Positions 25,543-28,196 of a stretch of 64,000 nt of DNA are shown here, piece after piece; the stretch's first letter is position 1; each line of letters begins with the position of its first letter. Source of the DNA: Verrucomicrobiia bacterium (GTDB lineage: Bacteria; Verrucomicrobiota; Verrucomicrobiia; Opitutales; Cerasicoccaceae). Below the pieces are notes generated by a model. The model was not told the DNA's origin, made no database searches, and saw nothing but the letters and a program-made list of their open reading frames with translations. Both the position numbers and the translations under genes were made by a program. The stretch covers positions 561,136-625,135 of the forward strand of contig JAUIHT010000002.1 in the NCBI GenBank assembly GCA_030432235.1, read 5' to 3'.

Positions 25543-28196
25543 CACTTAACGACGAGATTAACAATCCGGCCCGGCACGTAAATCTCTTTCACCAGATTCT
25601 TGCCCTCCAGGTGCGGGACCACTTTCTCAAGGGCCTTGGCGGCGGCGAGAATGTCGCCCTTCTCCATGTCCTTGGCCACCTCGAGGTCTCCGCGGAGCTT
25701 GCCGTTGACCTGTACCATGAGCTTCATGGTGTCCTCGACGAGGTACTTCTCCTCGAAGGCAGGCCAGCCGGCGTCGATGATGCCGGGCTCGTTACCGAGC
25801 TTCACCCACAGATCCTCGCTGATGTGCGGCGCCAGCGGTGCGAGCAGGCGCAGCAGACTTTCCACGGTGGCTTTGGCCACGCTGTCCGCCTTGGAGAAAT
25901 GGTTCAGGCAAATCATCATCTGCGAGATGGCCGTGTTGAAACCCAGTGTCTCGTAGTCCTCGGTCACCTTCTTGATCGTTTGGTGCAGCATTTTTAAATT
26001 TTCCGCTGACTCGTCGGTGGTAACGATTTTGGAAGAGTCCATCGCCAGGGTCCAGATACGCTTCAAAAAGCGTGAAACACCCTCGATGCCCTGCGGGTTC
26101 CACGGCTTCATGGCCTCGAGCGGCCCTAGGAACATAATGAACATGCGCAGGGCGTCCGCCCCGTAGCTCGCGATGACGTCGTCGGGGTTGGCCACGTTGC
26201 CGCGGCTCTTGGACATCTTTTCGCCGTCCTCGCCCAGGATGATGCCCTGGTGGAAGAGTTTGGTGAACGGCTCCTTGGTGGTTAGCGCGCCTTCGTCATG
26301 CAGGAACTGGTGCCAAAAGCGCGCATAGAGCAGGTGCAACACGGCGTGCTCGGCCCCGCCCACATACCACTTCGGCATGCCCCAGAACTGCTCGACCTCC
26401 GGCGCGATGGGCGCAGTGGTGTTCTTCGGGTCGAGATAGCGCAGGTAGTACCAGCACGATCCCGCCCACTGCGGCATGGTGTTCGTCTCGCGAATGGCGC
26501 GGACGGCCTGCGGGGACTTGTCCAGGCCACGGCGCTCCTCCAGCACCTCGCCCGTTTCCAGGCTCAGGAAAACGTTCAGCCAGTCCGTGGCCTTGGCCAG
26601 CGGGCTCTGTCCGTCGCCGCTCGGCGCATAGCTCTCGACCTCGGGCAGCGTCAGCGGGAGCTGGTCGTCCGGCAGGGCCACAGCATAGCGCAGCTTGCCG
26701 TCGAGGTAAGCCGTGACCGGCTCCTTCGGCAGCAGCGCGTGCAGCGGCGAGTGCTCCATTTGGGTCAGCGTCTCGTAGTCCTCGGGCGCAATCCACAAGA
26801 TAGGGAACGGCTCGCCCCAGTAGCGCTGCCGCGAGAAGAGCCAGTCGCGCAGCTTGTAATTGACCGCCGCTTTGCCCAGGCCCTTTTCGGCCAGGTCGAA
26901 GGTAATCTTTTTAATGGCTTCCTTGCAGGGCATGCCGCTGAACTCGCCGGAGTTGCCCAGGACACCGTTGTCGGTATCCGTCATCGCCTCAGTGAGTTCA
27001 TTCTCACGCAAAGATGCAGAGACGCAAAGCTCCTCATTTGAGCTCTCTTTGCTGCTTGGCGTCTTTGCGTGAGGAAATATTACTTGTTTGATCGGAAGTG
27101 AAAATTCCTTCGCGAAGGCGAAGTCGCGCTCGTCGTGGGCAGGCACGGCCATGATGGCGCCGGTGCCGTAGGACATCAGCACGTAATCCGCCACCCAGAT
27201 GGGCACCTTCTCGCCGTTGACGGGATTGACGGCGAAGCTGCCCGTCGGCACGCCGGTCTTTTCCTTGGCCAGCTCGGCGCGCTCAAGGTCACTCTTCTCG
27301 GCGGCCTTCTTGACGTAGGCCTCGACCGCCTCGCGATTGTCCTGAGTGGTGAGCTGCTTGACCAACGGATGCTCGGGCGAAAGCACCATATAGGTGACGC
27401 CAAACAAGGTATCCGGGCGCGTGGTAAAGACCGTGAATTTTTCATCGGCGATTCCGTCGATGGTAAAGTCCACCTCGGCGCCCTCACTGCGGCCAATCCA
27501 ATTCGCCTGTAAACGCTTGGTGGAGTCCGGCCAGTCGAGGTCTTTCAAACCGTCCAGCAGCTTGTCGGCGTACTTGGTAATTTTCAGCACCCATTGGCGA
27601 ATGGGGCGTTTCTCAACCGGGAAGTTGCCGCGCTCGGAACGAGGCCCCTCGGCGGTGTTGAGCACTTCCTCGTTGGCCAGGACGGTGCCCAGCTCGGGGC
27701 AGTACCAGACCGGCTTCTCGTCCACGTAGGCCAGACCGGCCTTGAACAGCTTCTGGAAAATCCACTGCGTCCAGCGGAAGTACTGCGGGTCGGTGGTGTT
27801 GACCTCGCGGTCCCAATCGTAGCAGAAGCCGGCGGCGGCGAGCTGCTTCTTGTAGGTGGCGACATTCTGCGCGGTTACCTTCTCCGGGGCCTCGCCAGTC
27901 TTGATGGCATACTGCTCGGTGGGCAGGCCGAAGGCGTCCCAGCCCATCGGGTGCAGGACGTTGAAGCCCTGCGCGAGCTTGAAACGCTTGAGCGTATCGG
28001 TGGCAGTGTAGTTCTCGATGTGGCCGAGGTGCAGGCCCGCGCCGCTGGGATACGGGAACATATCCAGGATGTAGAACGGCTCGCCGGGCTTGTCCTCGGT
28101 GGCGCGGAAGAAGCGTCCGCCCTGCGCGGGGTCGGCCCAGTAGGCCTGCCAGCGCGGCTCGATTTCGGCGGGGTTGTAGTCTTGGTCGGTTGCCAT
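25542..28196 (-). CDS. leuS: Leucyl-tRNA synthetase with an in-frame repeat insertion in the editing domain
   Basis: 884 aa. HLGH at 56-59 and KMSKS near 659-663 are the ATP-binding signatures. The editing domain has TTRPDTLFG and GTGAIMAVPAHDERDFAFA. Directly after it, between SLPIKQVIF and DNGVLGNSGEF, about 24 extra residues (375-398, including SSKESSNEELCVSASLRENE) are encoded by a 71-bp imperfect palindrome of intergenic-repeat type. The frame is intact and all catalytic motifs remain, so the enzyme should function. It leads an operon with the FecR-like gene, a membrane protein and lpxI. Confidence 0.97.
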   Translation of the reverse strand: MATDQDYNPAEIEPRWQAYWADPAQGGRFFRATEDKPGEPFYILDMFPYPSGAGLHLGHIENYTATDTLKRFKLAQGFNVLHPMGWDAFGLPTEQYAIKTGEAPEKVTAQNVATYKKQLAAAGFCYDWDREVNTTDPQYFRWTQWIFQKLFKAGLAYVDEKPVWYCPELGTVLANEEVLNTAEGPRSERGNFPVEKRPIRQWVLKITKYADKLLDGLKDLDWPDSTKRLQANWIGRSEGAEVDFTIDGIADEKFTVFTTRPDTLFGVTYMVLSPEHPLVKQLTTQDNREAVEAYVKKAAEKSDLERAELAKEKTGVPTGSFAVNPVNGEKVPIWVADYVLMSYGTGAIMAVPAHDERDFAFAKEFSLPIKQVIFPHAKTPSSKESSNEELCVSASLRENELTEAMTDTDNGVLGNSGEFSGMPCKEAIKKITFDLAEKGLGKAAVNYKLRDWLFSRQRYWGEPFPILWIAPEDYETLTQMEHSPLHALLPKEPVTAYLDGKLRYAVALPDDQLPLTLPEVESYAPSGDGQSPLAKATDWLNVFLSLETGEVLEERRGLDKSPQAVRAIRETNTMPQWAGSCWYYLRYLDPKNTTAPIAPEVEQFWGMPKWYVGGAEHAVLHLLYARFWHQFLHDEGALTTKEPFTKLFHQGIILGEDGEKMSKSRGNVANPDDVIASYGADALRMFIMFLGPLEAMKPWNPQGIEGVSRFLKRIWTLAMDSSKIVTTDESAENLKMLHQTIKKVTEDYETLGFNTAISQMMICLNHFSKADSVAKATVESLLRLLAPLAPHISEDLWVKLGNEPGIIDAGWPAFEEKYLVEDTMKLMVQVNGKLRGDLEVAKDMEKGDILAAAKALEKVVPHLEGKNLVKEIYVPGRIVNLVVK
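27003..27073 (-). repeat. Palindromic repeat element inserted in leuS coding sequence
   Basis: 27003-27029 and 27047-27073 are 27-nt arms matching at 22 of 27 positions, ending in CTCACGCAAAG / CTTTGCGTGAG. The 17-nt loop contains a smaller dyad CTC-ATTT-GAG. The words GCAAAGA and GACGCAAAG recur inside the arms with about 7-8-nt spacing. Such CGCAAAGACGC words normally sit between genes. Confidence 0.88.

Follow-up and report, generated by a model that had tools for sequence, protein, structure and literature searches.

How does a long palindrome come to lie within the open frame of an essential enzyme, and does it become protein there? The gene in question is leuS (25542..28196, minus strand) on a 64,000-nucleotide stretch of DNA, the window, from a 5.7-Mb genome in 42 contigs (G000). 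In the species collection compared, the named members closest to this genome are Opitutia (Verrucomicrobiota). It encodes a leucyl-tRNA synthetase (LeuS) of 884 amino acids in an intact open frame and scores 1001 bits against TIGR00396 leuS_bact, for which the cut-off is 548 bits. At 27003..27073 (no strand assigned) it contains a 71-bp palindromic repeat, the arms of which are 27 nt each, match at 22 of 27 positions (81%), enclose 17 nt and end in CTCACGC/GCGTGAG. In 12 shuffled versions of leuS the best inverted repeat of 27 nt reached 16-18 matches, compared with 22 in the real gene, and an Rfam search returned no family at the palindrome. Read on the coding strand, the left arm, CTCACGCAAAGACGCCAAGCAGCAAAG (27047..27073, minus strand), codes for HAKTPSSK and the right arm, CTTTGCGTCTCTGCATCTTTGCGTGAG (27003..27029, minus strand), for LCVSASLRE; the whole palindrome encodes about 24 residues, positions 375-398 of LeuS. 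They follow FAFAKEFSLPIKQVIFP. The conserved motif GTGAIMAVPAHDERD of the editing domain (residues 344-358; 27123..27167, minus strand) lies some 17 residues upstream of them. The first-pass annotation of this DNA had given exactly these coordinates and counts for the palindrome and had taken it for an in-frame repeat that adds about 24 residues and leaves frame and catalytic motifs intact. This was borne out: the repeat reads as protein, the 884-codon frame is open and the editing motifs are unchanged. Its placement of the insert directly after GTGAIMAVPAHDERD has to be corrected by those 17 residues.

The explanation we favor, with a probability of about 0.87, is that a dispersed, non-autonomous palindromic repeat was inserted into a tolerant loop of the LeuS CP1 editing domain and that its translation adds about 24 residues, which are neutral or nearly so. 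The repeat would have entered leuS after the host lineage parted from its nearest sampled relatives, landing in a loop that already permitted variation in length. With the frame remaining open, it would be translated as part of a flexible surface loop, where it could persist by neutrality or near-neutrality, while copies that break genes would be removed by selection.

The leuS palindrome belongs to a repeat family with consensus arms of about TCTCACGCAAAGACGCCAAGGCGCAAAG / CTTTGCGCCTTGGCGTCTTTGCGTGAGA. A covariance model, R1, built from eight copies that include the leuS palindrome itself, assigns the latter 70.2 bits (27002-27074; E 1.7e-18 in the window), and BLAST with the leuS palindrome retrieves another copy in the host genome at E 8e-8. 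Taken together, both methods find about 11 well-scoring full-length places in this genome, leuS included, plus weaker or half copies. A search for the arm sequence elsewhere in the genome, as proposed in the first-pass annotation, thus yields about ten further good copies, mostly between genes. Copies of the repeat lie mostly outside gene frames and in unrelated contexts, and the differences between them are partly compensated on the opposite arm. The family is present in all ten genomes of the host's taxonomic family, in 21 of 132 genomes of the order (E 1e-9) and in 30 of 289 genomes of the phylum (E 1e-10). Papers searched for the arm sequences contained no description of this repeat, and the family, which is without GTAG or CGTC tags, appears to be previously undescribed. 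Other inverted repeats occur in the window: a palindrome with 18-nt arms, ACCACGAAACAAACGAAA / TTTGGTTTATTTCGTGGT, at 36181-36247 matches R1 weakly and perhaps represents another repeat family, a perfect inverted repeat (23 nt, spacer of 1 nt) is located at 39995-40041 and a 32-nt inverted repeat with AATGACGAA units at 58275-58377.

In alignments, the insert is without counterpart in the LeuS proteins of 29 other genomes, i.e. 9/9 other genomes of the family and 20 of the order. Likewise, a scan with R1 of 68 LeuS loci, taken from the order and from outside it, detects no repeat copy. Conservation of the same residues across distant genera, which the first-pass annotation had named as the mark of an old protein feature, is not seen; the insert is absent from every other LeuS surveyed, the nine from close relatives included. 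The closest LeuS, that of G001, is 74% identical, too distant to reveal the unoccupied site in the nucleotide sequence. The net gain of the host protein over G001 amounts to 19 residues, so that the insert probably took the place of some of the ancestral loop. Across all bacterial LeuS surveyed the loop at this site differs in length and sequence, and in G004 and G008 it is longer, with sequences similar to one another and distinct from the leuS palindrome repeat. The AlphaFold model of the host protein, calculated with an alignment of 45 LeuS, has a mean pLDDT of 87.9. Values below 50 are confined to residues 1-3 and to residues 379-399 (27000..27062, minus strand), the sole internal segment of this kind, which overlaps the insert and for which the low score may in part arise because alignment columns lacking homologues receive low values in any case. 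The very low pLDDT suggests that the insert is probably a flexible surface loop, in agreement with what the first-pass annotation had proposed to look for in a structure model.

LeuS is not the only protein concerned. When 170 repeat copies were inspected for a frame that stays open across the element and is flanked by coding-like sequence on both sides, an approach that counts in-frame copies only and that gene-breaking copies would escape, five were found inside recognizable genes: leuS (G000), valS (G004), pyrG (G206), a gene for a B12-binding radical-SAM protein (G333) and a DNA methylase gene (G328). The valS copy resides in a length-variable segment, and the other ValS of the family are without the repeat; the G206 pyrG product has extra residues relative to solved CTP synthases. 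The radical-SAM protein matches TIGR04013 over 165 residues versus 147 model positions, and the methylase copy is situated near the gene end; these two cases are less securely shown than those in leuS, valS and pyrG. The candidate at L259 (G006) was dropped because its open frame is probably antisense, and those at L317 and L329 were discarded because a coding signal was present on one side only. IleS genes of the host's taxonomic family contain no element within the gene. The idea that the repeat is unusually stop-free had to be abandoned, with 2.56 open frames per copy as compared with 2.45 for dinucleotide-shuffled sequences and 2.54 for the flanks. Since open frames are not particularly frequent in the element, its survival in genes needs only a chance fit of the frame and selection. 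The leuS, valS and pyrG genes provide clean cases in essential, well-understood enzymes, in which the cost of a repeat-derived insert is measurable.

The proteins and genes just mentioned show additional peculiarities. A second length-variable insert region is present in the G004 ValS (L274) near WLWPFATFG, between WPFGxFG and FWYPT, and differs in length and sequence among genomes of the family. The ValS loop that carries the palindrome in G004 contains tandem AAAAGTC heptamers in G000 (L282, 3059-3079) and AACTCTCA units in G008 (L278, 1919-1945). The CTP synthase of G206 (L437) has another extra segment, YGTTKHTKTETK, that may derive from a second repeat. In G333 (L433, 1115-3079), the radical-SAM frame continues C-terminally into a domain resembling REP-associated tyrosine transposases (NF047646, E 1.3e-21, just under the cut-off).

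Other repeats have reached the same LeuS loop. In G006 it holds TCACACAGAGGCACAGAGGCACGGAGG, which is unrelated to the palindrome; with up to three mismatches allowed, its 23-mer has 36 occurrences in that genome, against 0 control matches, and no more than two in three relatives. The loop of an Omnitrophica LeuS contains a sequence to which some 20 other places in that genome match in part. Together with the palindrome of the host, this makes three lineages with repeat-derived sequence at the LeuS loop. It is possible, and put forward here as a tentative generalization that may well prove too broad, that the CP1 loop is a recurrent landing site for unrelated palindromic repeats that become protein in separate lineages and that repeat insertion is a general route of loop growth in the aminoacyl-tRNA synthetases of these bacteria. 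With three independent repeat insertions in one loop, the distinction between a tolerant and a preferred target becomes testable.

Could the insert be an adaptive addition that alters editing, tRNA binding or regulation of LeuS? Its location in the editing domain of an essential enzyme and the presence of repeats in the same loop in three lineages would fit such a role, and a changed editing of mischarged tRNA-Leu had been considered in the first-pass annotation. The latter claim is unsupported, given a variable loop, intact editing motifs and low confidence for the loop in the model. Furthermore, the catalytic motifs as a whole are unchanged, the insert is predicted to be unstructured, loop length and sequence vary in all LeuS surveyed, comparable inserts are found in unrelated proteins and repeated insertion into one loop is just what tolerance alone leads one to expect. 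An adaptive role is therefore improbable.

It is even less probable that the hairpin acts in leuS mRNA or DNA, for example by translation pausing or structure-based control, and that coding is incidental. The coding-strand RNA of the palindrome is indeed predicted to fold stably (-35.3 kcal/mol, z = -4.5; none of 200 shuffles as good), but such folding is expected of any palindromic insertion, only this species has the hairpin among leuS genes and most of the other copies have unrelated surroundings and are not in a gene frame. A chance resemblance of an old length-variable loop to the repeat, or an artifact of assembly, hardly deserves credence. This loop does vary among all LeuS and palindromes are hard to assemble, yet the resemblance extends over 71 bp of a multi-copy genomic palindrome (70.2 bits with a model that includes the leuS copy; E 8e-8 for the other copy by BLAST), similar cases exist in independent assemblies and the preserved frame of leuS speaks against an assembly error at the palindrome.

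In the reading we favor, the element itself would be mobile but non-autonomous. The flanks in leuS exhibit no obvious target-site duplication, and the search for a parent transposon covered PF01797. A REP-associated tyrosine transposase (RAYT) as mobilizer is unsupported: the Y1 transposase profile PF01797 has no match in G002, G003, G004 and G006, all of which carry the repeat, and no repeat copy is present near the 10 Y1_Tnp loci fetched.

In-frame palindromic insertion as such is an established phenomenon. Rickettsia palindromic elements (RPE) occupy intergenic positions and are also found as in-frame fusions in numerous protein genes that are unrelated to one another, conserved ones included (Ogata et al., 2000; reviewed in PMC2229807); they are likely neutral or slightly harmful, and a Rickettsia guanylate kinase with a palindromic insert was shown to be translated and active (PMC2229807). 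The resemblance to RPE noted by the first-pass annotation, a likeness by description, holds for the behavior, i.e. in-frame insertion into several unrelated genes (leuS, valS, pyrG, radical-SAM, methylase), and fails for length, 71 bp here as opposed to 105-146 bp for the original RPE (PMC2229807). The host also differs, and only a few percent of the inspected copies are in gene frames here. CGTC REPs, characterized by a terminal CGTC, stems of 8-9 bp and loops of 4-5 nt (PMC3733652), are likewise palindromic, partly intragenic and without a known dedicated transposase, whereas the leuS palindrome has 27-nt arms with 17 nt between them and is without terminal CGTC. Intragenic GTAG REPs reach their highest number in Opitutus terrae, a member of the Verrucomicrobiota, and for other bacteria REPs have been reported from tRNA synthetase genes, with inserts of 20-30 residues (PMC3733652). 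The repeat described here shares the location in coding genes of Verrucomicrobiota, the occurrence in tRNA synthetase genes and the insert size. Unlike GTAG REPs, it lacks GTAG on both strands over 27003-27073 and no associated tyrosine transposase (RAYT, Y1) was found, and its single palindrome is longer. Protein-coding palindromes are thus extended to another repeat family in Verrucomicrobiota.
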